64,000 bases of DNA from Candidatus Faecicola pullistercoris (GTDB lineage Bacteria; Bacillota; Clostridia; Christensenellales; CAG-917). Made by a program: the position numbers and the translations under genes. The notes beneath the pieces are model-generated. The model made no database searches. It was not told the origin of the DNA and saw nothing but the letters and a program-made list of their open reading frames with translations. Where the stretch lies: NCBI GenBank assembly GCA_018714105.1, contig DVNW01000024.1, positions 62,001 through 126,000 of the forward strand, in the 5' to 3' direction. Shown in pieces: positions 18,767-62,766 of the stretch (positions are counted from its first letter, which is position 1; the number at the start of each line of letters is the position of its first letter).

Positions 18767-18779
18767 GGAGGGAAGAGAA

Positions 18780-19895: not shown

Positions 19896-19944
19896 ACGAA
19901 GCGCGGCAACGCGCATGCGGCAAGCGCCGCGAAGGAGGATGGAA

Positions 19945-21399: not shown

Positions 21400-21403
21400 A
21401 ACT

Positions 21404-21421
21404 TTCGGGCGTCCGCCCGAA
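21404..21421 (+). other. Intercistronic stem-loop between glgA and glgP
   Basis: A perfect eight-base stem TTCGGGCG / CGCCCGAA with a TC loop just after the glgA stop. It lacks a following T run, so it is more likely an mRNA-stabilising or processing hairpin, or a leaky terminator, than a full stop. Confidence 0.6.
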
Positions 21422-21468
21422 TAGAATAATATTACGACAGAAAATCTAATCATAGGAGACAGAATTTA

Positions 21469-23907: not shown

Positions 23908-23916
23908 AGGATAAAA

Positions 23917-38440: not shown

Positions 38441-38469
38441 TAACCGACTTGAAATAAGGAGGCTGCTTT

Positions 38470-39390: not shown

Positions 39391-39397
39391 TTGAATT

Positions 39398-40729: not shown

Positions 40730-40761
40730 TTATATATTTTAAATTTAAAGAGGTGTATGTT

Positions 40762-42849: not shown

Positions 42850-42879
42850 TTGACGGCAAAGTGCCGCGTAGGTTAAAAT
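42850..42879 (+). promoter_or_regulatory. Probable promoter of the giant lipoprotein gene
   Basis: TTGACG (42850-42855), an 18-base spacer and TAAAAT (42874-42879), 87 bases before the start codon. Confidence 0.55.
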
Positions 42880-42949: not shown

Positions 42950-42966
42950 GTTAAGGAGGCTAAACT

Positions 42967-45900
42967 ATGAAATCTAAAAGGGTTGACTTGAAAAAGTTGT
43001 TGCTGGTAGCGGTTATGGCCGTACTGGTACTCGTACTCTTTGCGGCGTGCGGCGATAAGGCAGGCACGGGCTCCGTAAGCGGCGGTACCAACAATGCCGG
43101 CGGCGACAGTTCGGGAGCGGGTTCCACCTCCGTCGTCATGCGAAACGGCGACGCGTTGGAAATGCTTTTCGACGCCATGATTGAGTCTAAAAACAGCGGG
43201 TATCTGGACGAAAAGTTTATGAATTTCGAGTTCAGCACCTTCTTCATTCTCGAAAGAGAAATGGTGTACAAGACTTATTACGTGGACTTCAAAGGCGCTC
43301 TCGACATTCAGAACGGTAAGGACAGTAAATTGTCCATCGTTATCAGAGAGGACGATAACGGCACCGATAAAGTCATTATGGGTATCTACGGCGAGGGCGG
43401 CAATATTTACATAGACACTCGCAACGTTTCCGATACCGGCGTGCAGGTGCTTAAGATAGACGACTTCGACCTCGAATGGTTCGTGGAAGTGCTTGACAGC
43501 CTGTTTACCGAACTCGACCTCGGCGGTTTTATGGAAGGGCTTAACCCCTCCGAACTTATAGGCGGACTGCTGGGCGATCTCGGTTCGATAGGCGGCATGA
43601 TAGAAGGCCTTCTGGGTACTTCGCTGAGCGCTACGTTAGTTACTTTGGCCGGCGACGGTCAGGAAACAGTGGTTACCACCGACGCGTCGGGCGTTACCAC
43701 TATGAGTATTCCGCTGAGCACGCTTAACGGCCTGTTGCCGATAGCTCTCGGTATGATTCCCACGCTGGCGGGCGACATAATGGGCGATATTTACGATATC
43801 GCCGAAATTGCTTTCGGCTGGGATCTTAATACCATTCTCGGATCTATAGGCAAGGACATAGGCGCGGGCCTCGTCATTAACGGCGAGCTCATCGACGGAC
43901 GCTTTAACGGCATGGATTTCGAAGTCAGGATTTCCGACAACAGACCGGAAGGCTCCATGGGAGAAGATTCCGCTCCGTTCGATCCGCTGTCTCTGCGCCT
44001 CGGGGCAAACAACTTCTCGATAGGCAGTACGCCTTCGTTCGAAATTCCCGATTTCTCTAATATGTTGGTAGAAGATTTCAGCCTCACTACTATCAACGCC
44101 GACGTCGAAATAGAAATCAACGCGAAAGAACACACTTATACCCTTAACGGCCTCGATACCGCTATGGGTAATATCATTTCTTCCCTTTTGGATTTGGATA
44201 AATATACCGAGCTCGCAAACATGCCCATAGCCGTGGACGACACCGTTTTCAGACTGTGGGTTAAAATAAGAGCCGAAATAGACCTTAAAGACAACAGAAA
44301 CACTCAGGGCCTTGTCGAAATTTACGGAGGAGAGAACAACTCGCTTCGCGCCGGGCTTTATTACAGCGGCGCCAACGAGGCCGTTTACGTGGATTTGTCG
44401 GGCATGGGCGGCGGACGTTACAAGATAGGTTCGTACGTCAAGACTACGGAACAGACGGTTACCACAAAGAACACGTCCGGTCAGTACATACTCATGCAGG
44501 ACGGATATTTCGAGGTTTACGATCCGTCTAATTCCGCGCATGTCAAGAGGGGTAACGAATACCGTTACGATCTGACCAACGTTACGACTTCGTCCAACGA
44601 GTCCATTAACCTTAACAATATCATAAAGGATTCTCTGCTCGACCTTATTAAGGCAGAAGTTCCTTCGCTTATGAGGCTTATAGGAAGCCTTACCGGCGAT
44701 AATTCGCCCATAATCAAGGGCGAGGGAGCGGCCTCGGCAGACGATATAGCGGCGGCCGCAGCCATTGCGGAAGCCGTAAACGAAGGTCGCATCGTTATTC
44801 CCAGATATTACGGCAGCGACGCGTTCGCTCAGGCTACCGTGGAAACCTCGGTCGACACCATGGCTCTTATTAAACAGATTCTGGCAAATATCGAGATTAT
44901 CAGGGGCGAAGAAAGACTCGAATTCGACAAAATCATGCTCGATTTGTCCGGCTCCGTTCTGGATACCATTCTTTCCATGGTTCAGCCCGGACTGGTTCTG
45001 CCCGTCACCAGGGCCGACGTGGTTATCGATTCCGAGGACATGTTCGGCATAAACGGCATATTCATCGACCTGGCTCTCGGCACGGCGGAAGAACCCGATC
45101 TGTTTACGCTCAGCCTGCCCATTACTTTGAGCTACGGCACGCATATCGACGATTGGCAGATGCCCAACTTCAACGATTCGTCCAAACCTTTTATAGACAT
45201 TTCGCTCAATACCGACGAAAACGGCAATATGGAAAGTTTTTCCACAATCGCGCTTTCGCTGTCGGGCGAAATCAAGCTGTCCGCTGCGCAGACCAACTGG
45301 GAGCTTACCCAGCTCGAAAGTCTGCTGTACGGACTGCTGCTTACTCTTAATATCGAAAACGACATAGAACTGCACTACGGCTTTACCGTTGACGTTAACC
45401 TCGATATTACCAAAATTTCGACGGATACCATTAACGCCATTTCCGCCAAAGTGCAGCTTATCAAGAATCCCGATATCAATTCCGAGGCGACCATTTCCAT
45501 CTACTTTGTAGAAGGAAAACTGTACCTCGACGCGCAGAAAGCGGGCATTCCTCCCGTCATGATAGACGTTTCGAGTCTGATGAACGGCGTGGACTTTGCG
45601 GGGCTGCTGTTCTCCAAAGATCCCACGGCGGGCGGACAGGCGACGGCTACTGCCGATCCCGCGGACAATACGGGAGATACTACGGGAGATACTTCGGGCG
45701 GCGAGGGATCTTCCATAGACGCTCTTGCCCTTATCGGCGCGCTTATCAAAGGAGTGAATATCAACTCCGGCGGACTTGAAGTGCTGATTGCCACCAACTT
45801 TATACAGAAACTTATTGAAGTTATAGGAGCGGAGAGCCTGGACCAGAACCTGATTGACTTTATGGAAAGTTTCCAGATTACCGAAGGTTCGGGTATTGCC

Positions 45901-48900
45901 ATTCAGTTCGAAGGTCTTAACCTCAGTCAGCTCTGGATTGCCGCGAATATAGGAGTTTCCTCGGGCGACGATTTTGCGCTCGACCTCGGACTCGGACTCG
46001 GACATATTCTGGTCGGCCTCGAACCCATTAACGTAACTCCCGTCAACGCGGGCGATTTTGCCGATATTATGAGCACGCTCAAATTCGGGCTCAACATGTC
46101 CGCTCAGGTAGATATATCGGCTTCCAAAAACGATATAGAGCTTGCCGAAATGCTGGGAGCACTGTTCGGCAGTATCGCGCTTAACCTTAATATAGAGGAA
46201 GATATTAATCCCGGTATAGAAGTTAATCTCAGCGCGAATCTGGACCTCGGCACCGTGCCCGAATACAACGAGACTCAGCTTAAACTGGAAATCTACGGAG
46301 TTTCCAGCGGTAAACTGCTTGCGGGTATTTATTATTCGGAAGGAATGCTCTACGCCGATATAGGACTGCTCGGCGTCGAGAAATTCTATATGCCGCTCGA
46401 TATAATCACGCTTATTCAGGGCGCTATTGCCGATGCGGGCACCGATAATCCCGATTCCGCGGGCGCTTCCGTCGACATTGCTGCGGCTCTCGACGGACTC
46501 GACGTTCTGGTTATGCTGTCAAATCAGCATCTGCAGGTCGAAGTTGCGGGAGGAATTACGGCCGCTCTGCTGTCCATAGTTGTAGACGCCATAGAGGGCG
46601 ACGGGACGTCTTCCTCGATTACGCCCGAAATGCTCGACCTCATCAACAGGCAGATAGCTTACCTTAAAGGCGAGGGCGAACCCGTTGACGGTTTCGACAT
46701 TCCCGATATAGGACTTTCGGCGGAAATTACCTGGAAAGACGACAACAACTCACCGCTTCTTAATGCGCTCGGTCTTGACGTTAACCTTTACATACTCGAC
46801 GACGCCGGCGCAAAAGCGGCGAATATCGCGATAGGCGTGCACGATATAGGCATTTCCTTCAAGTGCGTCGATCTGCTCGCGGGGATAGATCTCGGTCAGT
46901 TTACATACGCTCCTCTCATAACCATAGGCGATAACAACGAAATAGGCGTAAATCTCGAAAACGTATACTTCCAGACCATAGGTTATATCTATCTCGCGGC
47001 TTTCGAGACCGGCGCGGAGGATAACAGCGTACGCCTGGGCGATTATCTCACTCAGTTCTTTGAAACCGACGGCGACGGCAATATCGTTAACAACGAAAAC
47101 GCCGATATTTTCAATGCAATAGTCGATTTGTGCCTGAGATTCAGAGTTTACAACAGTATCGACGCTTATGCCGGATTCAGGATTGCCGCAAACCTCAATC
47201 TCGATCCCTTGATTAACAAGGGCGAGAACGACGCGGTAGACGTCGCGGCCATACTTTCCGGGTCCGAACTCGCCCTTGAAATCTTCAACGGTAAGTATTC
47301 GGAAGAAAACGATCCGCTTATCAGCCTGTATTTGCAGAACGGTATTGCTTATCTGCGTCTTGCCGGCGACGCCGCTAACGACGTAAGACTAAAAGTCAAT
47401 CTGTTCAATACGGGTCTTCTCGACCTTATTTCGGGGGCTTCGGCCGCTGCCGACGGGGAGGGTACTCAAGGCGGAACAACTACCGAACCCGCGGAAGAAC
47501 CCATGGATATTCAGTCGATTATGAAGATTATCGACGGCGTTCTCAGCAGTATCTCGGTTAACAGAACGGAAATATCCGTAAACCTTGCCGCAAACCTTCT
47601 CGGCACGGTAATCGATCTTATACTCGAAAAAGAGGGCACCGTTCTGCCCGAACTCAACGAGGAGAACAGCAAACTCTGGTTTGCACTCGACGATAACGGC
47701 AATATCGCGCTTAACCTTATGCTGGGTATCGACCCCATAGCGATAGGACTGTCTCTCGGCAATCTCTCGATAGGCTTCTCCGAAGGCACCGTTGTGCCCG
47801 TAAGCGAGGAAATGCGTTTTGAAAGCGACTACAAGTCTCTTGCGGACCTGTCGCAGCTTTCGCTTTCGGCTCAGGCCGGTATAAACGTTAACTTCTATCA
47901 GAGCGAACTGCCCGTGGGCGATATAATCAGTTCGTTCGTTTCCGACCTGGCGTTTGCGCTCGACCTCGATATCGAGGAGGACGTCGAACTCGCTCTGTAT
48001 GCGAATCTGTCGGCTAATCTCGATTTTGCAAGCGTGGACAATACTCAGATAGCGCTTGAAATTTATCTCGAAAGGGAAACGAGCGATATTATGGTTCTCG
48101 GCGCCTATATCGACGGCGCGGATATTTACCTCAATTTCCCCGCACTGAATATTTCCGCGGTCAAGATTACCAATATTTCGGCTCTTGAAGAGGTTATGTC
48201 GGATATTTATAACTCCATTTCCGGCCTGCTCGGTCAGATCGAGGGAGGCGGCGCCGCCATGGCTACCGCCGACGGCGACGTGCAGGACGCCATGGACGCT
48301 ATATTTATATTGTCCGATAACTATATTAAAATACAAATTACTAACCAACTTATTGTAGGCGTGCTTCGCATGCTGCCTACTTTCGGCGTTTCCATGGAAA
48401 GCTCGCTTGTGGATTCGCTGGTAGGTTTGATTGAAATGCTCGGCCTCGAAGTCAACCTCGGTTACGATACCGACGATTTCGTACTCGACGTGGCCATAGA
48501 AACCGCATACCTCGGCCTCGGCATCTGGCTGGGCAATCCGGTTATCTCGGTAGAGAGGTTCGACGATCTGCTCGCGCCCGTTGAGGCAAACCCCGGCATT
48601 TATACCGAATTCTCGACCGAAGGTAACGTGTACGTCGAACTCGAATTCGCCATAAGGTACGCTCTCGCTCAGGGAGAAACCGATCTGTCGCCTTTGCTCG
48701 ACAGTATTCTGAGCACGGTTAATATCGAAGGATTCGATCTTAAAGGCTTACTTAACGGCCTGCTTATCAGACTTGCCACTACCAGCGACGCGAAAGGACA
48801 GCTCGGCGTCAAGGTTATGGCGAACGCCAACGTCATGAACATGATTAACAACGCCGACAGCGGCGACATTGCTTCGCTGATACTCGATAATATCGAAGCG

Positions 48901-51900
48901 GGTATAGAAATTTCGGTAGGCTCCAAAAAGGCTTACGTGATGCTGACTCAGTTCGATCCTGCCGGCGGCGACAATACCAGCGCTTATCTCTTCTTTAAAC
49001 TCGACGAGATAGGCGCACCCAACTTCAAACTCAATCTTACCGAACTTATCGGTTCGGCAGGTAACCTCGATGCGGGCGACGGAGCTTCTTCTACCGAAGC
49101 CGCGGCGGCGGGCGACACTGTTTCCGACCCCGAAACCGAAGATACCACCTTGCAGATGATTAGCAAACTGCTTAATCTCGAAGGCAACGGTATCGCACTG
49201 GGCGGAAGAGGTCTCGAAATTACCCTTGCGCGCGAAATCATCGCCGTTCTGCTCAGCCAGTTCATCGACGGCTTCGTCGTATACGATGAAAACGGCGAAC
49301 TCACGGACGCTGCGCTTGCTTTGACCTTTGTAGACGAAACTAAGGACGACAGCGCGTTCAAAACCGTTGAAACCGCAGAGGATTCCGAAATAGCCGACAA
49401 CCGTCCTTACGTCAAAATCGACGGCACTTACGTGCTTTTCGAATCCGATAACCCCGCTCACGCAGGTCTGCAGCAGTACTATAAGGTAAGAAGCACCGGC
49501 ATTACCTTCAAAACCGACGATCCCAGAAACGGCGGTAAGGCTTCCTTCAATATCGACCTTGCGCTTAACCTCGGCCTCGATATCGGTATAAGTATTTACG
49601 GTTATGCCGTAGGTTTCGGCAGCGATAACCTGTATATCCCGCTCGGAGACAAGAACAGTTATGCCGACATCAACAATATAATGCAGGATAAACTGTACGT
49701 TTCCATAGACGGATACTTCGATTTGTCCGCCGTAAGAGACGAGGATTACAATCTTTCGCCTTTAATAGGCGGTCTGCTGGGCGATAACGAGATGGTTTCC
49801 GGCCTGGCAGATTTGCTGACCGTGCTCTCGCTTAAAGAGTTCCAGAACCTCGTTCAGTTCCGCATTTCGGCTTCCCTCACGCTGGGCGACCTCATAGGCG
49901 GCGAAACCGATCTCAGCAGAATGGAAGCTTCCATAGTTATTTTCAGGACGCTCGAAACGCTGGAAGAAGAAATATTAATAGGTTTATATTTAAGAGACAA
50001 TAATCTTTATATAGATGCAAGAGGCTTCAAACAGGATCCCGATTATCCCGTTCTCAGGGTTGCCGACTTCACGGACGGCCTCATGAACATTATCGGTTCT
50101 CTCTCTACGGGCACCGATGAAGCAAGCACTCTTTCCACCGAAGACGACGGTGCGCAAGGTTCGGCCGACGGAGACGAACTCGGACTTGCTCTTGACATCG
50201 TTCTCGGCAGTGCGGGTCTCGGAGTAGTGGTTTACGAAGACCTCGTATACGCCCTTATAGCCATGCTGGCGCCTTCGCTCGACCTCGACCTCAGCGTATT
50301 CGGCGACATCAATCTTTCGGTTATGCTTAACTTCAACGAAGCCGAATCTCTGCGCGATATAAGCCTCGACATAGGTTTGGGTATCGGAGCGCTTAACCTC
50401 GGCCTCGGTATAGGCAACGTGGTTATTGACATCAACTCCGAAAACGTTATAGTTCCCGACGAAGTCGTGGAAAACAGCAGAAACATCGTTGAAATGCCTC
50501 TGTCGCTCGGACTCGTGCTTCAGGTTGAACTGTCGGCCGATCAGGGTGTTCTCGACGTCGGAACCTTGCTTTCCGATTTCATACCCGGACTTAATCTCGA
50601 AGTAAACGTGCCCGACAACGGCGGTACCGCGATGCTTTTAGAGATAGCTATCGACGTTACCGTCAACCTCGGCGACTTCAATACTCTCGAGGCGGCGGTT
50701 ACCGTTACCAACAAGAGCACGCACAATAACGACGTATTGCTTAAAGTAATTTACTCCGGCGGCGTGATTTACGTCGACGGCAGCGGCCTCGGTATATCCA
50801 AAGTCAGCATTACCGGCCTCGATCTCGGCGGCTTGCTCGAAGACAAACTGGGCGGCATGCTCGGCCACGAGACGGCAGACGGAGCGGCCATCGCTTCCGC
50901 CGAAGCTTTCGATCCTTCCGCGGCGGCCATTCTCGTATTGCTTGACGGCCATAAGATAGGTATCGAAATAGGTATGGACCTCATCAGGTGGGTACTGGAT
51001 ATCCCCGCAATAAAAGAACAGGTAGATATCAATAAGTATCTGCCCGACGGATTGGATATTTCGGCTTTCTTCGATATCAATTACTTAAACGACGACGGCT
51101 TGCTCGATCTGTCCATATTCCTTAAAGCGCAGATAGCAAATCTGCTGGGAATAGGTTTCGGCCTGTCCGATATTCTGATTGACTTCGAGCCCAAAACCCT
51201 CAACGATATTCAGGATACCTCGGAATACGTCGAGATAATGTCGCTTACTCTTACAGAGGACGCAGAAGGCAATATCGCAATCGAGCCCGAAATAAAACTC
51301 GAATACGTAGGTCTCGGACTCGAACTCAGCGTAGAATCGGTAATGTCGGGCGGCAACGGCGGCGCGGACGATCCCGACGGACAGGGCGGAGTACTGGATA
51401 TGTCCACTTTGTTCTCGCCTCTCTTCCCGGCGGTCGAAAACCTTATGACGCAGATTAAACTGCCCGAAGACGTACTTAACCACATTATAGTGTCCATAGA
51501 CGCTAACGTGAGATTGCTCGACCTTATCGACCTGCTCTCCGGCGACGAGGAAATAAGTATCGAAACCCTCGACTTCGGCGCGCTTCTCGAAATGGTGGAA
51601 CTTTCCATTGAAATCTATAACGAAATAGAACAGGAAATACTCGTAGGACTTTACCTCAAGGGCGGTAACGTTTATATCTATCTCCAGGGTATAGGCTTGC
51701 AGAACATAGTAATAGAAAAATCCTTTATTATAAATATTATCGACGCCGTTATGCCCGCTTCGGGCGCGGCCGGCAGCTCTATGGCCGCTATGGCTTCGGA
51801 CGGAACCGATGATACGTCGGCAATTCTCGGTACCGTAGCCACTATCGTCAATACTTTCATTACGGGCCTCGATATTACGGGACAGACGCTTGTTCTCGTT

Positions 51901-54900
51901 ATAGAGAATTCCTACCTTGTAGATCTTATCCATCTTGTATTCCCCGATATGAACATGGGACAGATTCCCGAACTCGATATCGGTAAGAATTCCATTTCGA
52001 TCAATATGCACAGAGGACACTTCGTCAAGTACGCCGAAGCGAGCGAATACGAACTCTTCTATGCAAAAGACATGACGGGTAAATACGTGTTCGTGAACGG
52101 CGCTCCCGCGGTTTACGACGAGAACGAGCCCGATCACAGGGGCCTTGCAAGATACAATCTGTACGTATTGCAGGGCGAGGAATATATCGAATACGATATT
52201 AACAACGCCGAACATCAGGGGCTTGATATTTATATCTTCCCGCAGAGAAACGGCCTCCTCGAAGTCGACCTCAGCTTCTACACGAGCACGTTGGGAATTT
52301 ATCTGCCCGCGCCCGAGATATCGCTGACGGGTATCGAAATTGAATTGCCCGTCGGTACATGGGTAAGCGCGACCGACGTAAGAGGCGTTTCGCTCGAACT
52401 GCGCGGCACTATGGGTGTAGATACCGCAGACACTACGGGTAAAGAAGGCTTCACCGCCGGAAATATCCTGGGAGGCATTCTCGGAGATCTCGAAGCCCCC
52501 TTGCTGCTTGACGGATTCAGCGCAAGCGTTGAGTACGAAATCTGCGCGTATATCGGTTTCGATTATTCGCTGGCTCCCACTAAGTCGTTCAGTCTTACCG
52601 ATCTCGACCTGTCCATAAGGCTCGGCAAGACCGCTTACGACGAGAGCGGCAATATCATAAGCCAGTCGCCTCAGATTACCATTGTTTACAGCAGCGCTAC
52701 GCAGACGGCTTATCTTGACCTTGCTTTCTTCGGTCTGCCTAAACTGTCCCTCGGCGGTATCAGCCTTACCACGCTTCTCAACGACGTTCTGGGCGACGCA
52801 ATGAAAGGCGACGCGGACGGCAGTGCGGTAACTACCGACGGCATAGAGGGCGAGGCTACCGAAAATATCTTCACCAAATATCCTTCCGTGATTGCGATAA
52901 TGCAGCCCAATATGCTGGCTGCGGGTATTTCGGCTAAGTTTATCATAGCTCTTGTCGAAGTTATCGCGGGCGAAAAGGCGGACGATATAGTTAAGTATTT
53001 CCCCAACGTAGGCCTGGAAATAGACGCTACTTCTTATCCGCTTTCGCTGGGACTCATACTTCAATTGCAGAATGCAGACTGCCAGAAGGTGGTTGATCTG
53101 TTCCTGACTTTCAACGGATTCGATTACGACGAATTCGGTATGGCAAACGGTTCGGATATACGCTTCTATACTCAGGGCGAGTATAACGGGGAATATATTA
53201 TCGTCGACCCCAACGAGTTTACCTCGGTAGGCAATATCAATATCGACGCGGATACCAGTATCGGCGAGGAAGTATTCGATTTCAACCTTGAAAAACTTGC
53301 TCTCGAACTGCAAATCAGCCTCGATTTCATAGCGCCTGAAGAAATAAAAGACTGGTCTGAATACTTTACTGCCATATTCGGTATGTCCGACGAGGAGTTC
53401 GATATGCTGATAGCCGTTCTCGAAAAGGACAGCAACAGCAGCATAACTCTGACTTTGCAGGCCAACGTCAATCTGGCCGGTCTTATCAACGGCTTCGATC
53501 TCAACGGTACGGAAATACTGCTTGCGCTCGACATCAAGTCGGATATTTCGTCTCAGGCCAATATGCGCTTCGCCATTACCGTGGCAGGTAAAGAAAACGG
53601 AGTTGCTTCCGTATACATCGACCTTTCGGGCTGGCGCAACAAAGGGCAGTATAAGTTAGACCTCAACATAGGTTCGCTCCTCAGCGGCGCCATCGGCGGA
53701 GCTTCGGCTCAGAATATCGCGGGGGCCACGGCAGAGCCCAATTACGGCTTGCTGCCCGAGAACATATTCAGCATCATTAACGGTATATTCGGCTATCTGC
53801 AATTCAGCGACAGCACGATTACCGTAGGATTTAACAATCAGATTATTTCGGCGATATTCGACTTGCTGCTCGCCAATAACCCCAACTTCGAACAGGGTAT
53901 GGAAATGCCCACGGTAGAAGGCGGACTCAGCATAGATACCACCAACTGGACCGTTTCGCTTAACATGAAGTTCGACAGCAACATGGATATCAAGCTGGGC
54001 ATCAAGAACATCAAAGTGGGCACTTCTCCCAGTGAGGCGGTACCCGGTTCGGGCAGCCTGCTTCCCGAAAACGCCGACAGCTTTACCGATATTATGGATA
54101 TGAGACTGCTTGTGGAACTTATCGGCTCCATGAGCTACCAGGCTACGCAGTCCAGCGAAACCAACCCTGCCGTAGACCTCAGCGGTATTCTCTCGCTCAT
54201 AACGAACGAAAGCGGACTCCCGCTTATTCAGAACCCGCAGCTTCAGATCCGTATCGGCGAAGATATAAGCATGGAACATGCCATCAATACCCGTCTGTAC
54301 GTGGATACGGCCGACTTCATGAATTTGAAGGTTGCTATCGAAATATTCAAGAATAAGGCCGACGCTCAGGTTCCCGGAGCTACCCCGCAGATAGGCATTT
54401 ACCTTGACGGCAGCGATATTTTCGTTGACCTCGGAGGCCTCGGCATACCCAAACTCCATATAGCAAACGTAAACCTCGGTAAGATTATCAACGACGCTAT
54501 AGACAGCGTGGATATTCTCGCCGAACTCGGTATTGTGAGAGGAGGCGCGTCCGCAAGTTCGGATGCTACCGCAAGCGTGGACAGCTGGTGGGGCGAAACG
54601 GCTATCGAAAACGCCGCCAGCGCTTATCTCGCGCTCATCTTCGCGCCCGAGAAATTTGCCATAGGCGTTAACGTTGCGATGATCGACGCCATTGTTCAGA
54701 TCGTAATGAGAAGCCGCGGCGAAGTCGTTGAGGAGGGAACTCAGCTTCTGCCCAACTTCGGCGAACTCGGCCTCGAAATAGATTCCACTTCCGGTAAGCC
54801 TCTGCCCGCAATGAGACTTAAACTGCTTAACGCGGCGGGCGGCACCAGCCTCGAAGGCGTATTCAAACTCGACGATATCGTGCTTAACGCAAGCGACTTC

Positions 54901-57900
54901 TCGGCGGGATATACCTACGGCAGCTGGGCCAATACCTCTACCGGACAGTACGGCTTTGTAGGAGATACTTCCAGAACAACCACGTATAACGGATTTATGG
55001 AGCACGTTTACTCGGCTATGGAAGCAGGAGAATACTCGACCGTATACGACCTCGAATCCGGCAAGATTCTGCTGGATAAGATTGCTATCGGCGCCGATCT
55101 GACTTTCTCGCTCAATACCAAAGAGGGCGTTAACGATATCAATTCCGGCAATTACAAGAGCAGTTTGCAGTATTATCTGTCTAAACTTATCAATTCCTTC
55201 CTCGGCGACGCTGACGACCCCGACTTCCTTAGCAAGTTTGCCGTTGTCGCCGGCGAGAATAAGGAAATGATTTATACCGTTTCTATAAGAATCGTAGTCA
55301 ACGTCGGCTCTCTGATTACCGACTCCGGCTTTGATATTATGGGTATCCTCGACAGCGAAATGTCAATCGAGGCCTATATCGGCGGTCAGTACAATAAGAA
55401 GATTCTCGGACTGTATAAGCTCGAAAACGACTCCACGATTTACGCCGATCTGTCCGGCCTCGGACTGCCCAAGATTCAGCTGTTCGGCCTTGACGCCATT
55501 ATGGGTATGCTGCCGGCCTTGGGCGCGGCTTCGGATAACGCTATGAGCACGGCGGTATTTGCCGCCGCCGATACGGACGCAGAGGTCGCCTTTGCCGAAC
55601 TCGTACTGCAGGACGGCCTTATCGGTATTAACATCGAGCCCGAGTTTATCTATCAGATACTCGAATACGCGGGATATGAGGTCGGATCTTCTTCCGACGG
55701 CTACAAGACGATGGAATACGTTACCGAAGACAATAAGGTTATGCAGGTTCCTCTGCCCAACGCGCAGTCGGTAAGCATTACGCTTAATATTCTCGACAAG
55801 CTCGAGTCGCTTGACCTTACCGTGTTTGCCGACCAGCTCGGTACAACCCTGTCGTTCGGACTCAGCAATCTGCAACTTACTACGGATACCGACGGCTTTA
55901 TCCCCGATTCCATGAAACCCGTTACCGACGAGTACGGCGCTTTGCAACTCGCGAGCGGCGGCGAACTCAGCCTTACCAATATTCTGTCTTCCGTACTCGA
56001 AGCGCACGACCTCAACCTCGGTATTACTTATGCTAAGAATAATACTACTTCACAGGGCAGTAACCGTAAGTCGCAGACCGTTATTACCATCAGAACCACC
56101 AAAAACGGCGACACCAGTCAGTCCGGCGGTATAAATCACGGTAACAACAAGCTGAACGCGGCGCTTAATATCAATACGCCCGCGAATACGAATAACAAGA
56201 TCGATATTTACCTGTATAACAACAAGATAAGCGGCGATATTTCGGGCGCGTTCACTAAGGGTATTGTCGGCGGCGTGCTGAACCTCAATACCTTTAAAGA
56301 TATGGAATTTGCCGACCTCAACATAATCGAGCTTATCGGCAATCTGGGCAGCGCTTCGGCAAGCGCTAACGTCGCTACCTCTTCCGCCGACGGCACCGAA
56401 GGCGATACCTCGGGCGGACTTCTGGGCGATATGACCATCAACGACATACTCAAAGGTATTAAAGTCAACTGGTGGTACGGTAACGTTCATAACAACCTCA
56501 CGCCCAACGAAAGGTATTCGACCATACGTATCGAGCTCGGTACTCAGCTTATCAACACTCTGATGATTCTGGTAAATAACCTTATTTACGGGTTTGCCAC
56601 CGACCAGACAGATGAGCAGAAAGCCGCGTTCGACGCCCTTAGTTACGAGGAAAAACTTGCGGTTGTAAGAGGTTACGTGAACAATCTTGACGAATTGCTG
56701 TATAACTTTGTCGTAGACATGCTCTCAGACCTTGCGGGTATCAACATCGGTACGGTTTTGGGTATAGTTCCTCAGACCCGGCAGGAAATCAAAAACCTTA
56801 TCGAAAGCCTGCTGCCGTTGCCTATACTCAACGACGGGCAGAAGGCCTATATAGATATTACCCTCGATAAGGGCACGATAGGCTCCGGCGACATGGCGCT
56901 CGTACACGAAATAGGCATTTACCTCGGCTGTGAAAAGGGTACAGCTTACGGCAGTCTGCCCTCGAACTCTGCGTTTATAGTTATCAACAACAACGGCATC
57001 AACATCAAGAACGCAGTAAGCGCACAGTGGGCTAATTCGAACGAGGCAGCTACTCTTATGAATAATACCTACTCGGTAACCAACCCCTTCGACCCGTGGG
57101 AACTTTCGGCAAGCGCGCTTACCGACGCTTCCAGACTCCCGCAGAGAGCTTACCTCTTCTTCGGCGACGGCACGAATAACATGAATACTCAGGCCAGCGG
57201 CGGAAATACCACTGAATTTACCGGCCTTTCCGGTAGCGCGGTTGTTTGGGATTCGTCTTCCGTTAACCTCGTGCCCGGCACAACAAGTACCATGTACGGC
57301 TATGCGGGTAATCAGAGACTGGGCAGCATTACCGTTCAGGTTTCCAATACCTACGGTATGAAGTCGCTGTACGGCTATCTCGATGCCGATAACAACTTTA
57401 TCAGGAGTACTTCGCTGGTTATCGACGCGACGGGAACAACGCCTAACAGCCTTGCTTCCATGCCTAAGACCATTGTAATTGTTCTTAACAACGGTTACTA
57501 TCAGGTTCTTACCATGCAGGAGAGCATCCTCGACAATACCGAGCAGACCAAACCCGTTATCCCGGGTATCACCGATAAGGCAACCACGCTTTACGGTAAC
57601 TTCGGTCTGTTGTCGGATATTCCCGACAGCCTCGACGACGAGAGCGGAAACTACGAAATCGAATTCTGGTATCAGTATCTCCGCTCGGGTACTATCCAAA
57701 GCAAGTTCAACCTTACTCTGGTAAACCGTAAGGTAAGCGAAATAGTATTGCCGGTTTCGGCTAAACTTGCCGACGGCAGCGTGGTTACGGATAAATACAA
57801 CTTTGTGGGCGATTCGTCTACGTTCGACGTATTTAACCTTAAACCTTATAACTACGACATAGGCGCAAGCCTTGCCGAACTTACCACCGTAGACGTTGTG

Positions 57901-60900
57901 TTTGCGGACGGTTCTACCGGCAGAATTAGCGCCGATTGGAGTGCGGCGGTCGCAAAACTCAACCGTTACTACAACAAAGACGCGGCCTATAAGGGAGTTG
58001 ACGTTACTCTTGACGTGTCTGTCGGCGGCGCCGAAGGTATAGCCCAGACCGTTCCTCTGCGCGTTTACGTAGAGTCCAAAGTCGTAAAGGGCCTTACCAA
58101 GACGGACGGCGCGTCCAGAACATTTAACTATAATCCTTACGAAGAATACAATATCCAGAGTATTCTCAAAGGAAGCAACGTTTACTTCGATATAGAAGTC
58201 GGAGGCGCCGATGCGGTATCCACGGCTATTTCCAACCTCCACGTAAATCTGCCCGAACTGTCGGCGGAAGATAAGTCGTTTGACGGTAAAGGTTCATTCA
58301 TCATAACCTTCCTTATCGGCGGCGTGGAAGTTACCGATTCCGAAGGAAACGTTACCGTTGTCGGAGCGCAGGAGGCCAAAGCAAGGGTTTACGTAAACGC
58401 TAAGATTCTGTCTTCCGCAACCGTTCAGGTAGACGATATTGCAAATGCTCTTAACCTGATAGGAAATAACAATAACGGCACCTCGGGATTTGACGTTCTG
58501 CCTTATATTTCAAATACGGTTAACGCCAAATTCGCCGACGGTACGTCGACATTGCTTAAGGTTAAATCCGCAAATATGGCAAGCGAGGTTAAGGTTACTA
58601 ACGCCGGCGGCGTATTTACCGCAGATATAGTTGTGGGAAGTCTCTACGATCAGGACAACGTCAACGATCAGAGCATAAGGGCTAACCTGATTGTTCCCAG
58701 AATCAATATTATGGAAGTCAGAGCCGTTCAGAGCGGATTTACGTCCGATTCTCCCGTTTACGTAACTTACAACAAGGGCGGACAGACGGTTACTACCATA
58801 GAATATACGGATTTCTGGGCAAGTGTAGGCAACGTCTCCGCACTCGTTAACGGCGTGGCTTCTGCCGCGATAGGCGAGGTGGCCGGCTCGGTTAAAATCG
58901 GTTCCGAGCAGTTTGACGTAGTCGTTACCGATACAAAACCCGAACTCGGAAGTTCGTATACGAGAGGTGCGTTAGGCAGTGCGCTCACGGTTTCGGCCAT
59001 GAGCGCGGCCGATGACCTCGCTGTGGCTTCTGCAGACGGATTTCTGGACGGTTTCGTGGAAATTACCGACGTTGAATGGCGCAGCATCACTTTCGACCCC
59101 ATGACCGATAAGCAGGTGTATTACCCCGAGCAGATTGAGGTTACGCTCTCCGACGGTTCTACCAAAATAGTAGGAGCGGAGTTCTATTCCTTTACCGAGG
59201 GAGCCAAGAACGGGCTTGAAATACTCAGATATAGGACCCTTAATTTGCAGGACGGCTACGGTAACCTTATCGAAAACAGAATGTACGAGGCCGCTTATTA
59301 CGCTACCGCTCAAGTCAGACTGTATGAAGGCGTGGACGAAAAGTTCGTTACGGTACCCGTTACCGTACCCGGCAGAGTGGTTGTGGGCGATACGGTAAGC
59401 ACTCAGGTTACCATTGTCAATCCATATTCTTATACATACGATCCCGCTTCCGCATTTTTCAGTCTGCAAAAGACGGCTACCGTTACTTTTGACGGCGGCG
59501 ATTACCGTAACTTTACTTTGCACTGGAATCAGAGCGATATAGCGATACCCGTTATCGCGGAGAACGGCGCTACTTTCTCCGCCAGGGTTACTTACGGCGA
59601 AGGATTGCAGACCTTTACTCAGGCAGTCAGCATTGTGGTAAGGCCTTATATTCTCACTCCCGAAAAACTTTCGGCAGTGCAGGACGCGCTTGACGCCAAA
59701 ACTTTCTATGCTTACGACCTCAGCGGTACGGGTGATAACAATCCGTACAACATAGCAAATTATCCCTCGGAAGTTACTTTTGCCATAGGTCTTACGGGCA
59801 GCGAAACGCTCAGCCTCAGATGGGATTTGTCCGCTTTGAAATTCAATTACGAGGGCGGCGTCCGCGATATTACGGTCTTGGCGGGCAACGATATGTACGG
59901 TTATCAGGACGTCGTGCTTAAAATCGACATCAAACCGTGTATAATCGAAAGCATAAACATAGCGGAAATGCTTCCCGCTCAGTTTGTCAATTACGCGACA
60001 GGGCTGGATATTCTTACAGTCGGAAGAAAAACGCCGGCCGAGGTAAGCGCTTCGGCGGCAACCGCAAACGTCAAATTCCGTGGCATTGACGGAGTTTACT
60101 CCGAAAGCGTTCTCTGGACGATAGAAGGCCTCGACACGCTTGATTTTTCGGGCGGCAGCAAAAACGCGGTTATTACTATCCGCGACAGGGATATTGCCGG
60201 CGCGCAGAAGTATAATATGACTTTCGTTTATACTCCTCTAGGTATTACCGAAGTGCGTAACGTAGGCGGAGGCAATATCTTCAACAATCTGACCATTAAC
60301 CCCTACGAATCCTCCGTTCTGAATACGCCGGATTCGGTTGAGGCCGTATTTACCGATAACAGGACGATAGTTTTCAATACAGCGGGAACAAACGGCTATA
60401 AACTTATCTGGGACAGGTCCGGTTACAATACTTCCTACAACAGTACCGAATGCTACGTAAACGCCAAGCTAAACTTTGACGGTATCACTTATTCGCAGAA
60501 GTTTGAATTTAACGTAATCAATTACAGGGCGAACAAAATATCCTGGGGCGGCACCGAGTATAACGTTGTTGACGGAAAGGTTACCGGGTATACTTATCAG
60601 CTCGATCCGTTTGATCCGAACAATCAGGCCGTAAACAAAAACGTAACCGTCAGATTTACAGCGGATACGGGCGAGAGTATGACAAAATCCTTTACTGCAA
60701 ACGTTTCCATGCTGGACGGATTCAAGCTTACTACCGCGGGCGGCAATTACAGGGCTGCGCTTAAAGTAGGCAATAACGAAACCATTTACGTTGACGTCTA
60801 CGTCGTCAACAGGACCATTACTATCGGCGGAAAGGACGTCGCCGCAGCGTCAAACGATGAACTTAAAGCAATTGCCAGCATAGCAGGAAGCTATTCGTTG

Positions 60901-61575
60901 GGCGCAGGACTTACGTTGCCTTCGAGCACGAGCGAACTCAGCCTGAGCGGAAGTATGCCTGCGGGCGTTACCGCTTACAACAACATTTACTGGAAGGTTG
61001 AGAAGTACAATTACTCGACTCTTACCACCAACGTAAACGTCATGACTTTCAGCGGCAACGACTTTACCGGTAATTACACCGGCACGAAGAACGTGGTTTA
61101 CAATAAAGACAGCGTGGTTTACAGCCTGTCGCAGATAAATAACACGTCGGCTGCACCCACGAGAACGCTGGATACCTCCGAGCCCTGTAAATACGTGCTT
61201 ACCGCTTATATCGGAAGAGTTTATCAGAACGGCGGCAACATAGTCGTATGGGGCGAACAGGCCTCCGTTCAGTACACTGTTCTCGTGGGCGGCTATCAGG
61301 AAACTTCGATTACCGAATCCTTTATGGGAGCATGGAGATCGGACGATAATCAGTATAACTATATCGTCTTCGACGCCAACACGGCGAGAACGGGCAGGTT
61401 TATTACGTCAAGCAGTCAGGCCTTTACGTATACTTACACCAAAGACGAGACTACCGGCCTTGCCACTATTACCACGAGTACCGGCCTGACCATCACTCAG
61501 ACGGCTAACGGTCAGTTGAAGTGCAGTAACGGCATTACTTTTGTGCCTTACGATTTGCAGACAGCCGTTGTATGA
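42967..61575 (+). CDS. Giant modular lipoprotein, 6,202 residues, function unknown
   Basis: One open frame of 18.6 kb without interruption, behind AAGGAGG. The N-terminus is a lipoprotein signal (basic start, hydrophobic core, FAAC with Cys28), so the protein should be lipid-anchored on the outer face of the cytoplasmic membrane. Residues about 85-4660 hold some 15 diverged beta-rich modules, each centred on a strand-turn-strand like GIYxxGGxIYVDLSGLGLPKLxI and followed by an Ala/Asp/Ser/Gly/Thr-rich linker in most copies. Residues about 4660-5960 form Ig-like repeats with NPYxYD and FADGS motifs. The last 90 residues are a separate small domain (ESFMGAWRSDDNQYNYIVF…). Cys is almost absent after the anchor, and there is no LPXTG or C-terminal membrane helix. 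It could be a surface fibre, an adhesin, or a lipid- or hydrophobe-binding bridge across the wall; nothing in it names a function. Confidence 0.9.
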   Translation: MKSKRVDLKKLLLVAVMAVLVLVLFAACGDKAGTGSVSGGTNNAGGDSSGAGSTSVVMRNGDALEMLFDAMIESKNSGYLDEKFMNFEFSTFFILEREMVYKTYYVDFKGALDIQNGKDSKLSIVIREDDNGTDKVIMGIYGEGGNIYIDTRNVSDTGVQVLKIDDFDLEWFVEVLDSLFTELDLGGFMEGLNPSELIGGLLGDLGSIGGMIEGLLGTSLSATLVTLAGDGQETVVTTDASGVTTMSIPLSTLNGLLPIALGMIPTLAGDIMGDIYDIAEIAFGWDLNTILGSIGKDIGAGLVINGELIDGRFNGMDFEVRISDNRPEGSMGEDSAPFDPLSLRLGANNFSIGSTPSFEIPDFSNMLVEDFSLTTINADVEIEINAKEHTYTLNGLDTAMGNIISSLLDLDKYTELANMPIAVDDTVFRLWVKIRAEIDLKDNRNTQGLVEIYGGENNSLRAGLYYSGANEAVYVDLSGMGGGRYKIGSYVKTTEQTVTTKNTSGQYILMQDGYFEVYDPSNSAHVKRGNEYRYDLTNVTTSSNESINLNNIIKDSLLDLIKAEVPSLMRLIGSLTGDNSPIIKGEGAASADDIAAAAAIAEAVNEGRIVIPRYYGSDAFAQATVETSVDTMALIKQILANIEIIRGEERLEFDKIMLDLSGSVLDTILSMVQPGLVLPVTRADVVIDSEDMFGINGIFIDLALGTAEEPDLFTLSLPITLSYGTHIDDWQMPNFNDSSKPFIDISLNTDENGNMESFSTIALSLSGEIKLSAAQTNWELTQLESLLYGLLLTLNIENDIELHYGFTVDVNLDITKISTDTINAISAKVQLIKNPDINSEATISIYFVEGKLYLDAQKAGIPPVMIDVSSLMNGVDFAGLLFSKDPTAGGQATATADPADNTGDTTGDTSGGEGSSIDALALIGALIKGVNINSGGLEVLIATNFIQKLIEVIGAESLDQNLIDFMESFQITEGSGIAIQFEGLNLSQLWIAANIGVSSGDDFALDLGLGLGHILVGLEPINVTPVNAGDFADIMSTLKFGLNMSAQVDISASKNDIELAEMLGALFGSIALNLNIEEDINPGIEVNLSANLDLGTVPEYNETQLKLEIYGVSSGKLLAGIYYSEGMLYADIGLLGVEKFYMPLDIITLIQGAIADAGTDNPDSAGASVDIAAALDGLDVLVMLSNQHLQVEVAGGITAALLSIVVDAIEGDGTSSSITPEMLDLINRQIAYLKGEGEPVDGFDIPDIGLSAEITWKDDNNSPLLNALGLDVNLYILDDAGAKAANIAIGVHDIGISFKCVDLLAGIDLGQFTYAPLITIGDNNEIGVNLENVYFQTIGYIYLAAFETGAEDNSVRLGDYLTQFFETDGDGNIVNNENADIFNAIVDLCLRFRVYNSIDAYAGFRIAANLNLDPLINKGENDAVDVAAILSGSELALEIFNGKYSEENDPLISLYLQNGIAYLRLAGDAANDVRLKVNLFNTGLLDLISGASAAADGEGTQGGTTTEPAEEPMDIQSIMKIIDGVLSSISVNRTEISVNLAANLLGTVIDLILEKEGTVLPELNEENSKLWFALDDNGNIALNLMLGIDPIAIGLSLGNLSIGFSEGTVVPVSEEMRFESDYKSLADLSQLSLSAQAGINVNFYQSELPVGDIISSFVSDLAFALDLDIEEDVELALYANLSANLDFASVDNTQIALEIYLERETSDIMVLGAYIDGADIYLNFPALNISAVKITNISALEEVMSDIYNSISGLLGQIEGGGAAMATADGDVQDAMDAIFILSDNYIKIQITNQLIVGVLRMLPTFGVSMESSLVDSLVGLIEMLGLEVNLGYDTDDFVLDVAIETAYLGLGIWLGNPVISVERFDDLLAPVEANPGIYTEFSTEGNVYVELEFAIRYALAQGETDLSPLLDSILSTVNIEGFDLKGLLNGLLIRLATTSDAKGQLGVKVMANANVMNMINNADSGDIASLILDNIEAGIEISVGSKKAYVMLTQFDPAGGDNTSAYLFFKLDEIGAPNFKLNLTELIGSAGNLDAGDGASSTEAAAAGDTVSDPETEDTTLQMISKLLNLEGNGIALGGRGLEITLAREIIAVLLSQFIDGFVVYDENGELTDAALALTFVDETKDDSAFKTVETAEDSEIADNRPYVKIDGTYVLFESDNPAHAGLQQYYKVRSTGITFKTDDPRNGGKASFNIDLALNLGLDIGISIYGYAVGFGSDNLYIPLGDKNSYADINNIMQDKLYVSIDGYFDLSAVRDEDYNLSPLIGGLLGDNEMVSGLADLLTVLSLKEFQNLVQFRISASLTLGDLIGGETDLSRMEASIVIFRTLETLEEEILIGLYLRDNNLYIDARGFKQDPDYPVLRVADFTDGLMNIIGSLSTGTDEASTLSTEDDGAQGSADGDELGLALDIVLGSAGLGVVVYEDLVYALIAMLAPSLDLDLSVFGDINLSVMLNFNEAESLRDISLDIGLGIGALNLGLGIGNVVIDINSENVIVPDEVVENSRNIVEMPLSLGLVLQVELSADQGVLDVGTLLSDFIPGLNLEVNVPDNGGTAMLLEIAIDVTVNLGDFNTLEAAVTVTNKSTHNNDVLLKVIYSGGVIYVDGSGLGISKVSITGLDLGGLLEDKLGGMLGHETADGAAIASAEAFDPSAAAILVLLDGHKIGIEIGMDLIRWVLDIPAIKEQVDINKYLPDGLDISAFFDINYLNDDGLLDLSIFLKAQIANLLGIGFGLSDILIDFEPKTLNDIQDTSEYVEIMSLTLTEDAEGNIAIEPEIKLEYVGLGLELSVESVMSGGNGGADDPDGQGGVLDMSTLFSPLFPAVENLMTQIKLPEDVLNHIIVSIDANVRLLDLIDLLSGDEEISIETLDFGALLEMVELSIEIYNEIEQEILVGLYLKGGNVYIYLQGIGLQNIVIEKSFIINIIDAVMPASGAAGSSMAAMASDGTDDTSAILGTVATIVNTFITGLDITGQTLVLVIENSYLVDLIHLVFPDMNMGQIPELDIGKNSISINMHRGHFVKYAEASEYELFYAKDMTGKYVFVNGAPAVYDENEPDHRGLARYNLYVLQGEEYIEYDINNAEHQGLDIYIFPQRNGLLEVDLSFYTSTLGIYLPAPEISLTGIEIELPVGTWVSATDVRGVSLELRGTMGVDTADTTGKEGFTAGNILGGILGDLEAPLLLDGFSASVEYEICAYIGFDYSLAPTKSFSLTDLDLSIRLGKTAYDESGNIISQSPQITIVYSSATQTAYLDLAFFGLPKLSLGGISLTTLLNDVLGDAMKGDADGSAVTTDGIEGEATENIFTKYPSVIAIMQPNMLAAGISAKFIIALVEVIAGEKADDIVKYFPNVGLEIDATSYPLSLGLILQLQNADCQKVVDLFLTFNGFDYDEFGMANGSDIRFYTQGEYNGEYIIVDPNEFTSVGNINIDADTSIGEEVFDFNLEKLALELQISLDFIAPEEIKDWSEYFTAIFGMSDEEFDMLIAVLEKDSNSSITLTLQANVNLAGLINGFDLNGTEILLALDIKSDISSQANMRFAITVAGKENGVASVYIDLSGWRNKGQYKLDLNIGSLLSGAIGGASAQNIAGATAEPNYGLLPENIFSIINGIFGYLQFSDSTITVGFNNQIISAIFDLLLANNPNFEQGMEMPTVEGGLSIDTTNWTVSLNMKFDSNMDIKLGIKNIKVGTSPSEAVPGSGSLLPENADSFTDIMDMRLLVELIGSMSYQATQSSETNPAVDLSGILSLITNESGLPLIQNPQLQIRIGEDISMEHAINTRLYVDTADFMNLKVAIEIFKNKADAQVPGATPQIGIYLDGSDIFVDLGGLGIPKLHIANVNLGKIINDAIDSVDILAELGIVRGGASASSDATASVDSWWGETAIENAASAYLALIFAPEKFAIGVNVAMIDAIVQIVMRSRGEVVEEGTQLLPNFGELGLEIDSTSGKPLPAMRLKLLNAAGGTSLEGVFKLDDIVLNASDFSAGYTYGSWANTSTGQYGFVGDTSRTTTYNGFMEHVYSAMEAGEYSTVYDLESGKILLDKIAIGADLTFSLNTKEGVNDINSGNYKSSLQYYLSKLINSFLGDADDPDFLSKFAVVAGENKEMIYTVSIRIVVNVGSLITDSGFDIMGILDSEMSIEAYIGGQYNKKILGLYKLENDSTIYADLSGLGLPKIQLFGLDAIMGMLPALGAASDNAMSTAVFAAADTDAEVAFAELVLQDGLIGINIEPEFIYQILEYAGYEVGSSSDGYKTMEYVTEDNKVMQVPLPNAQSVSITLNILDKLESLDLTVFADQLGTTLSFGLSNLQLTTDTDGFIPDSMKPVTDEYGALQLASGGELSLTNILSSVLEAHDLNLGITYAKNNTTSQGSNRKSQTVITIRTTKNGDTSQSGGINHGNNKLNAALNINTPANTNNKIDIYLYNNKISGDISGAFTKGIVGGVLNLNTFKDMEFADLNIIELIGNLGSASASANVATSSADGTEGDTSGGLLGDMTINDILKGIKVNWWYGNVHNNLTPNERYSTIRIELGTQLINTLMILVNNLIYGFATDQTDEQKAAFDALSYEEKLAVVRGYVNNLDELLYNFVVDMLSDLAGINIGTVLGIVPQTRQEIKNLIESLLPLPILNDGQKAYIDITLDKGTIGSGDMALVHEIGIYLGCEKGTAYGSLPSNSAFIVINNNGINIKNAVSAQWANSNEAATLMNNTYSVTNPFDPWELSASALTDASRLPQRAYLFFGDGTNNMNTQASGGNTTEFTGLSGSAVVWDSSSVNLVPGTTSTMYGYAGNQRLGSITVQVSNTYGMKSLYGYLDADNNFIRSTSLVIDATGTTPNSLASMPKTIVIVLNNGYYQVLTMQESILDNTEQTKPVIPGITDKATTLYGNFGLLSDIPDSLDDESGNYEIEFWYQYLRSGTIQSKFNLTLVNRKVSEIVLPVSAKLADGSVVTDKYNFVGDSSTFDVFNLKPYNYDIGASLAELTTVDVVFADGSTGRISADWSAAVAKLNRYYNKDAAYKGVDVTLDVSVGGAEGIAQTVPLRVYVESKVVKGLTKTDGASRTFNYNPYEEYNIQSILKGSNVYFDIEVGGADAVSTAISNLHVNLPELSAEDKSFDGKGSFIITFLIGGVEVTDSEGNVTVVGAQEAKARVYVNAKILSSATVQVDDIANALNLIGNNNNGTSGFDVLPYISNTVNAKFADGTSTLLKVKSANMASEVKVTNAGGVFTADIVVGSLYDQDNVNDQSIRANLIVPRINIMEVRAVQSGFTSDSPVYVTYNKGGQTVTTIEYTDFWASVGNVSALVNGVASAAIGEVAGSVKIGSEQFDVVVTDTKPELGSSYTRGALGSALTVSAMSAADDLAVASADGFLDGFVEITDVEWRSITFDPMTDKQVYYPEQIEVTLSDGSTKIVGAEFYSFTEGAKNGLEILRYRTLNLQDGYGNLIENRMYEAAYYATAQVRLYEGVDEKFVTVPVTVPGRVVVGDTVSTQVTIVNPYSYTYDPASAFFSLQKTATVTFDGGDYRNFTLHWNQSDIAIPVIAENGATFSARVTYGEGLQTFTQAVSIVVRPYILTPEKLSAVQDALDAKTFYAYDLSGTGDNNPYNIANYPSEVTFAIGLTGSETLSLRWDLSALKFNYEGGVRDITVLAGNDMYGYQDVVLKIDIKPCIIESINIAEMLPAQFVNYATGLDILTVGRKTPAEVSASAATANVKFRGIDGVYSESVLWTIEGLDTLDFSGGSKNAVITIRDRDIAGAQKYNMTFVYTPLGITEVRNVGGGNIFNNLTINPYESSVLNTPDSVEAVFTDNRTIVFNTAGTNGYKLIWDRSGYNTSYNSTECYVNAKLNFDGITYSQKFEFNVINYRANKISWGGTEYNVVDGKVTGYTYQLDPFDPNNQAVNKNVTVRFTADTGESMTKSFTANVSMLDGFKLTTAGGNYRAALKVGNNETIYVDVYVVNRTITIGGKDVAAASNDELKAIASIAGSYSLGAGLTLPSSTSELSLSGSMPAGVTAYNNIYWKVEKYNYSTLTTNVNVMTFSGNDFTGNYTGTKNVVYNKDSVVYSLSQINNTSAAPTRTLDTSEPCKYVLTAYIGRVYQNGGNIVVWGEQASVQYTVLVGGYQETSITESFMGAWRSDDNQYNYIVFDANTARTGRFITSSSQAFTYTYTKDETTGLATITTSTGLTITQTANGQLKCSNGITFVPYDLQTAVV
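44479..44574 (+). repeat. Embedded small repeat, copy 1 (residues about 505-536)
   Basis: GQYILMQDGYFEVYDPSNSA then HVKRGNEYRY. It is inserted between modules 2 and 3 and shares the plan GxYVxxxGxxxxYDxxNPxHxGLxxY with copies at 49402 and 52078. Confidence 0.6.
49402..49488 (+). repeat. Embedded small repeat, copy 2 (residues about 2146-2174)
   Basis: RPYVKIDGTYVLFESDNPAH then AGLQQYYKV, the clearest copy of the NPxHxGLxxY ending. Confidence 0.65.
52078..52239 (+). repeat. Embedded small repeat, double copy 3 (residues about 3038-3091)
   Basis: Two units in a row: GKYVFVNGAPAVYDENEPDH-RGLARY, then GEEYIEYDINNAEHQGLDIY. Both keep the aromatic-acidic (YD/YD) pair and the PxH/AEH-xGL ending. 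Confidence 0.65.
57540..60840 (+). repeat. C-terminal Ig-like repeat stalk of the giant protein
   Basis: About nine to eleven beta-sandwich-like units of 75-120 residues. Recurring motifs are NPYxYD or a variant (LKPYNYD, YNPYEEY, VNPYSYTYD, INPYESS, LDPFDPN), then VxVxFADGS or a variant (VVFADGSTG, AKFADGTST, VTFDGGDYR, AVFTDNRTI), an aromatic W-D pair, and a closing strand before the next unit. This is the behaviour of bacterial Ig-like stalk domains, which hold a functional head away from the cell. Here the lipid anchor is at the other end of the chain, so the stalk would be the membrane-distal part. Confidence 0.65.
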
Positions 61576-61584
61576 CGATAAAAC

Positions 61585-61612
61585 AAAAGGCCGCCTTCGG
61601 GCGGTCTTTTTT
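61585..61612 (+). terminator. Intrinsic terminator of the giant gene
   Basis: GGCCGCC-TTCG-GGCGGTC (stable TTCG loop) followed by TTTTTTA, ten bases after the stop. Confidence 0.9.
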
Positions 61613-62758: not shown

Positions 62759-62766
62759 TTATTGAT

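Follow-up and report, generated by a model that had tools for sequence, protein, structure and literature searches.

We analysed a 64,000-nucleotide window of the Candidatus Faecicola pullistercoris genome (contig DVNW01000024.1, positions 62,001 to 126,000) and found that its 18.6-kb gene for a giant lipoprotein, P0001, encodes a body of 15 divergent tandem copies of one domain of ~290 residues. Each copy is predicted to form an 11-stranded curved sheet, a clam of the LolA/LprG type, and we favour the reading, which we put a little short of an even chance, that this lipid-anchored chain of fifteen predicted clams passes lipids or glycolipids out from the membrane and across the cell wall. A sequence-only reading of the same DNA had already singled out the gene as a candidate for an undescribed system, an assessment that holds so far as literature searches reach.

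The giant open reading frame (ORF) is a real gene: it did not arise from faulty assembly, and it has homologues. With residues 1-4600 as the query, a database search retrieved 51 homologous proteins of 6,207-7,935 residues, one 99% identical to P0001 and the others 24-42%, and nine representative orthologues align collinearly over their full length at pairwise identities of 21-45%. Misassembly, including the collapsed repeat that the sequence-only reading had warned of, was rejected because no direct or inverted DNA repeats of at least 30 bases were found within the gene (seed 14), because homologues of similar size lie on other contigs and because none of the listed matches in 32 genomes of the same family contains an internal stop. 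The GC content at third codon positions is even along the gene (0.54-0.64) and drops to 0.45 in the final piece. The stop-free frame with its ATG start, the ribosome-binding site, a promoter-like site of the gene's own and the UUCG terminator were all borne out (Table 1); a consensus scan reported the terminator at 61585-61610 on the minus strand only. The proposed lipoprotein signal likewise stands: the signal peptide ends in ...VLFAA|C28, where phenylalanine at -3 lies slightly outside the classical lipobox (several relatives have leucine there, in LVAC, LVGC or LIAC), the lipobox cysteine that defines a bacterial lipoprotein is invariant in the nine-sequence alignment, and the genome encodes the lipoprotein signal peptidase LspA. 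The precursor contains 10 cysteines, of which residue 28 is the first, and the mature protein has a mass of ~661.5 kDa and an isoelectric point of 4.08.

Self-BLAST of the whole protein gave no second alignment, and the repeats became visible once the protein was cut into pieces: BLAST of these pieces, together with a motif like G-x-Y..G.LY-[VI]-D-L..LG..K, yielded 14 anchors at spacings of 255-381 residues. Profile-profile comparison revealed homologous units across residues 55-4520, each of the 15 matching at least one other at a level of at least 92%; the best pair reached 99.5% (E 9e-23), not all pairs scored, and the stretch 4521-4790, as cut, matched no unit. A repeat model of the conserved half-unit, trained on 106 segments from the nine orthologues at the 14 anchors, identified (at E <= 0.02) 15 copies in P0001, P0003, P0006, P0007 and P0008 and 14 in P0021, P0022, P0047 and P0048, and none at E <= 1 in two reversed sequences. 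As the model was trained on these same nine proteins, independent support comes only from the fifteenth copy, which the training anchors do not cover (E 0.0076 in P0001, 2e-11 in P0007), and from hits in members from other families, namely 7 copies in L062, 7 in L063 (one at E 0.03), 4 in P0079 (one at E 0.16), 2 in P0053, 3 in L061 and 3 in P0086 (two of them weak). Both the order of the units and their number (14-15) are conserved across the nine orthologues, whose sizes vary mostly within units and tail and not by additional units. So constant a number suggests selection on how far the chain extends, and the presence of ordered, homologous units led us to reject an anonymous low-complexity protein. 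By eye, Tyr-rich inserts (with a pattern like KYV..NGAYV..TAANAEQY...KYYK) occur within some domains of P0006, P0007, P0047 and P0001 (~500-540, 2130-2180 and 3020-3090); they seem to explain much of the size difference between orthologues and resemble a separate, expanding repeat.

The repeats of P0001 found no match of note among Pfam, NCBIfam and PDB sequences, with hits far below the cut-off only, and membership of a known family by sequence was rejected on this ground. The earlier description of a protein of no known family thus holds at the profile level (Pfam, NCBIfam), and no clear hit of the modules to a characterised family arose. When a 1,158-residue stretch served as the sole query, none of 7,990 scored candidates reached E <= 0.001, and we suspect that common Leu/Gly words filled the candidate list. 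A profile of one region matched 32 of 43 genomes of the same family (the window's own included) and 21 of the 25 of good quality, leaving 11 without a match, four of them good genomes. At the level of the order, probably the Christensenellales, 67 of 297 sampled genomes matched, in six families, 19 of them from the window's own. Outside that family many of the 48 matches are weak; eight of those genomes were examined, and each contained copies according to the repeat model or the unit model. Only 2 of 391 sampled genomes matched at the level of the class, both of them members of the window's own family, so that at this sensitivity nothing was detected beyond the order. Named records with the gene include uncultured Clostridia, Candidatus Limadaptatus stercoripullorum, Christensenella sp. 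UBA1262 and a Bacillota metagenome-assembled genome. Within the order, open frames range from fewer than 1,000 codons (contig ends truncate some of them) up to 13,589 (G275) and members form a size series from about 1.65 to 13.6 thousand codons, so the claim that lipoproteins of this size are very rare fails for this order.

At the small end, a search with L060 retrieved 35 proteins of a subfamily of ~1,650 residues, one of them a 994-residue piece. This short subfamily (L060, L061, L064, P0053-P0087), found in family f5, carries an immunoglobulin-like (Ig-like) tail and, according to the model, 2-4 copies (in L060 four were counted by eye). Longer f5 members (L062, L063) measure 3.0-3.4 thousand residues and bear, directly after the lipobox, a repeat that we take to resemble InlB B-repeats. 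Another family of the order has open frames of 13,589 (L066/L067, G275:C2), 12,531 (L068/L069, G172:C50) and 11,348 codons (L070/L071, G111:C9), in which longer inserts separate the domain copies; these relatives are among the longest bacterial lipoproteins known to us.

The clam fold is a prediction from structural models. Comparison of a four-unit AlphaFold model of low confidence with 980 solved chains gave weak scores, and LolA (11), LolB (5), LprG (4), RseB (3) and LppX (1) made up 24 of the 50 rows listed and 12 of the top 14. These 24 rows mark three consecutive domains from the same start strand (P0001 ~1040, 1332 and 1624), and barrel rows also fall on the same spans. The strands counted in this model are given in Table 1. 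As far as the accessible part of the source describes it, the LolA superfamily has a core of 11 strands, with short-helix lids in LprG and LolB, and very low sequence similarity among its members (PMC6363788). The position of the Ala/Ser/Thr/Asp-rich segments of P0001, which we had formerly read as inter-domain linkers, coincides in the model with that of the lid of the LolA-type fold, and each such segment is now predicted to be a flexible lid loop inside a domain. According to the repeat model the array opens with the half that would start a LolA domain; at its other end, the second half of D15 gave partly in-register alignments with probabilities of 0.1-3.3% and 0.2-1.5%, which are suggestive only. 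The same rows could instead reflect a new β-rich repeat fold without LolA kinship and with an unspecified ligand, the LolA-type matches being a common curved antiparallel sheet arrangement picked up by a poor model. We consider this quite improbable, because a single superfamily fills nearly all of the top rows, on three separate domains and in one register, and because strand number and lid position agree with the LolA superfamily.

Sequence profiles did not detect the predicted kinship. The Pfam profiles LolA, LppX_LprAFG and DUF6612 had no hit in P0001 (hmmscan of the whole protein at E <= 1, of D1 and D4 at E <= 10), and a DUF6612 profile built from four proteins (L072-L075; two further loci, L076 and L077, yielded no usable frame) gave no signal above reversed or shuffled controls. 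PF07161 was silent in all genomes including the controls, hence its absence is uninformative. Of 149 genomes of the phylum, 3 had a PF03548 match, one of them above the cut-off.

A unit cut from linker to linker was modelled better than the four units together (predicted local distance difference test 76.7). LolB aligned to this single-unit model over β6-β11 (67 residues, 3.0 Å) in the same register as the four-unit rows, apolipoprotein B (apoB) and porins occupied the top structural rows, and no solved LolA or LprG chain appeared as a full-length match in two structural comparisons. We rejected this unit as the folding domain, as it showed no clear fold, and now think that the cut was wrong by a circular shift. 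The β belt of apoB is an amphipathic antiparallel sheet, and P0001 might be a lipid reservoir or scavenger, in which clams or an apoB-like sheet take up hydrophobic compounds or lipids from the surroundings (uptake, detoxification) without passing them along the chain. We regard such a function as improbable; the match to this eukaryotic protein, first for the single-unit model, lies within the chance band and was not seen for the four-unit model.

The C-terminal tail consists of three sections that are 61-79% alike among themselves and at most 1% alike to the units of the body (profile-profile comparison). We class it as Ig-like by its relatives: Big_4 (PF07532) is precomputed for P0003 and others and was found in L064 (E 8.7e-5; 22.4 bits versus a cut-off of 22.1), and neither Big_4 nor any other Pfam hit of note was obtained in the tail of P0001 itself (whole-protein scan; residues 4678-6202 at E <= 5). 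An internally repeated tail, Ig-like in relatives, would suit a mechanical stalk, in which the repeats (clams or other β domains) are a long spacer that holds the tail off the cell for adhesion. The accessible parts of the literature offer two further points in favour of a stalk: the monoderm Apilactobacillus kunkeei (PMC12863079) has giant surface proteins of 3,000-8,000 residues that contain elongated repeats, and LolA-type domains can lack a lipid role, an RseB-like domain influencing spore shape in Bacillus. However, mean identity to P0001 per 100 residues among the nine orthologues is 0.17-0.41 in the body versus 0.10-0.23 in the tail, the opposite of what is expected if a passive spacer carried an adhesive tip, and this speaks for a body with a function of its own. 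The constant number and order of the copies also speak against a stalk, as spacers are often variable in length. On balance a stalk appears rather unlikely to us.

If the repeats do carry lipids, the anchor signal would tether the chain at the membrane, each clam would hold acyl chains, and adjacent clams would exchange them as in a bucket brigade, not along one continuous groove, while the Ig-like tail would reach the wall surface or beyond. A single-clam precedent is LprG, reported in the accessible part of one study to transfer triacylglycerides between vesicles (PMC10576003). The upstream GH20 and PIG-L genes, and the SPFH (membrane-domain) gene that lies downstream in half of the relatives, point to an N-acetylhexosamine glycolipid as a possible cargo. 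Omp85 (PF01103) had no match in this 98%-complete genome, whereas 7 of 14 control genomes did match; an outer membrane is therefore likely absent and we take the cell to have one membrane. The absence of an Omp85 match and the presence of LspA make plausible the surface structure into or through the wall that had been envisaged, which would be built of 15 tandem domains plus an Ig-like tail and is not amorphous. More speculatively, and with lower confidence than in lipid transfer as such, we propose for a one-membrane bacterium a single-polypeptide conduit of LolA-type clams in series (longer chains elsewhere in the order), a tethered bucket brigade that would pass lipids or lipoglycans through the Gram-positive wall and would have no described counterpart. 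A carrier used singly in diderms would here have been serially duplicated, perhaps as a relic of a diderm ancestor turned wall-spanning.

Among known proteins, LolA, LolB, RseB, LprG and LppX share with the P0001 repeats, as predicted, a curved, 10-11-stranded sheet and helical lid segments, and LprG and LppX also share the lipoprotein anchor. By contrast, known members of the superfamily, so far as the accessible sources describe them, have a single domain of this type (in RseB it is joined by a second, different one), whereas P0001 has 15 in a chain of ~660 kDa, comes from a genome that gave no Omp85 match and shows no detected sequence similarity to them. The AsmA-like proteins TamB, YhdP and YdbH are, in the accessible part of their description, long envelope proteins that move lipids across the diderm envelope (PMC8912898). 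P0001 would resemble them in working as a long envelope protein for lipids, but it has no AsmA/TamB-type Pfam hit (E <= 1), is lipid-anchored and is predicted to consist of separate lidded domains instead of one groove; they belong to diderm cells, unlike the cell inferred from the missing Omp85 match. Giant1-5 of A. kunkeei are also lineage-conserved giant repeat proteins of a monoderm, but the accessible text describes helical repeats or arrays of β domains, β-solenoids and DUF5776 (PMC12863079) and not predicted clams, a lipobox and an Ig-like tail; DUF5776 was not among the Pfam hits in residues 4678-6202 of P0001 (E <= 5). SsdC (YdcC) of the monoderm Firmicute Bacillus subtilis has an RseB-like (LolA-type) domain on the outer side of the membrane, but, as far as the available sources tell, it is a single domain tied to spore shape, with no known lipid, and not a chain. 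A shape function of this kind cautions against inferring transport from the fold. We found no published description of the P0001 family, judging by titles and abstracts in a search that preprints and most subscription papers lay outside. If the prediction holds, P0001 presents a known fold in an architecture and a setting not known for LolA-type clams.

Table 1. Features of the giant lipoprotein locus in window coordinates. All domain borders are approximate and were placed by us in the LolA-like register; repeat copies (in residues) are those of the repeat model.
Feature	Position	Strand	Remarks
GH20, 306-residue ORF, 443-residue ORF, PIG-L deacetylase (upstream)	36899..41589	+	Pfam
Promoter-like site TTGACG-18-TAAAAT	42850..42879	+	10/12; shuffles mean 0.4
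Ribosome-binding site AAGGAGG	42953..42959	+	ends 7 nt 5' of ATG; read from sequence
Giant lipoprotein gene (protein P0001)	42967..61575	+	6,202 codons plus stop, ATG start, uninterrupted frame
Signal peptide (residues 1-27) and lipobox Cys28	42967..43050	+	C28 invariant in nine orthologues; LspA in genome
D1 (~57-362)	43135..44052	+	repeat copy 97-187
D2 (~366-735)	44062..45171	+	repeat copy 421-489
D3 (~744-1022)	45196..46032	+	repeat copy 797-895
D4 (~1028-1328), 11 predicted strands	46048..46950	+	repeat copy 1077-1167; 13/24 LolA/LolB/RseB/LprG/LppX rows
D5 (~1331-1606), 11 predicted strands	46957..47784	+	repeat copy 1397-1520; 7/24 rows
D6 (~1612-1872), 10 predicted strands	47800..48582	+	repeat copy 1670-1770; 4/24 rows
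D7 (~1887-2232)	48625..49662	+	repeat copy 1940-2068
D8 (~2236-2495)	49672..50451	+	repeat copy 2297-2395
D9 (~2503-2745)	50473..51201	+	repeat copy 2551-2647
D10 (~2762-3118), Tyr-rich insert	51250..52320	+	repeat copy 2835-2949
D11 (~3138-3388)	52378..53130	+	repeat copy 3207-3293
D12 (~3425-3690)	53239..54036	+	repeat copy 3486-3590
D13 (~3696-3990)	54052..54936	+	repeat copy 3765-3854
D14 (~4022-4310)	55030..55896	+	repeat copy 4096-4204
D15 (~4320-4700)	55924..57066	+	repeat copy 4388-4473, outside training anchors; second half suggestive only
C-terminal tail, Ig-like repeats (4791-6202)	57337..61572	+	three sections mutually alike; Big_4 in relatives
Intrinsic terminator, UUCG loop	61585..61610	+	hairpin then T run; -17.6 kcal/mol, z -4.3
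SPFH/Band-7 protein, zinc-ribbon protein (downstream)	61709..63843	+	Pfam

The genes upstream of the giant gene in the window encode, in order, GH127, GH2, a PH-like protein, GH20, the 306-residue ORF (weakly DUF4380-like, E 0.045), the 443-residue ORF and the PIG-L deacetylase. Upstream stretches were compared in six relatives (G004, G006, G008, G014, G026 and G027): GH20 and PIG-L are present in five (not in G026) and the 306-residue ORF in four, as are GH127 and the PH-like gene, and the 443-residue ORF has no match upstream in any of the six. The downstream comparison covered ten loci with at least 3 kb beyond the gene plus stretches of G006 and G026. SPFH and zinc-ribbon genes follow in 6 of these 12 relatives, namely L033 (contig of G027), L035 (contig of G008), L037, L038, L040 and L043, and are absent downstream in L036, L039, L041, L042 and the examined stretches of G006 and G026. 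GH20, the 306-residue ORF and PIG-L are kept beside the giant gene across genera, as are SPFH and the zinc ribbon in half of the relatives. These conserved neighbours hint at N-acetylhexosamine glycolipid metabolism; as the giant gene has its own promoter-like site and terminator, a function shared with them is no more than a hint. Elsewhere in the window (15681-25740) lies a glycogen cluster of a branching enzyme, two GlgC/GlgD-like nucleotidyl transferases, glycogen synthase, phosphorylase and an amylase.

At the least, P0001 represents an undescribed family that includes some of the longest bacterial lipoproteins. Little is known of how monoderms carry lipids and lipoglycans across a wall tens of nanometres thick, and a conserved giant lipoprotein with a nearly fixed number of predicted lipid-binding clams is a testable candidate for such passage. 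With its span of about 1.65 to 13.6 thousand codons, the size series within the order amounts to a natural experiment in chain length. The subfamily of ~1,650 residues offers a convenient small experimental model. The family also bears on the possible diderm ancestry of monoderm Firmicutes, a debate in which, judging from the accessible parts of the literature, the RseB-like protein of Bacillus is already cited.
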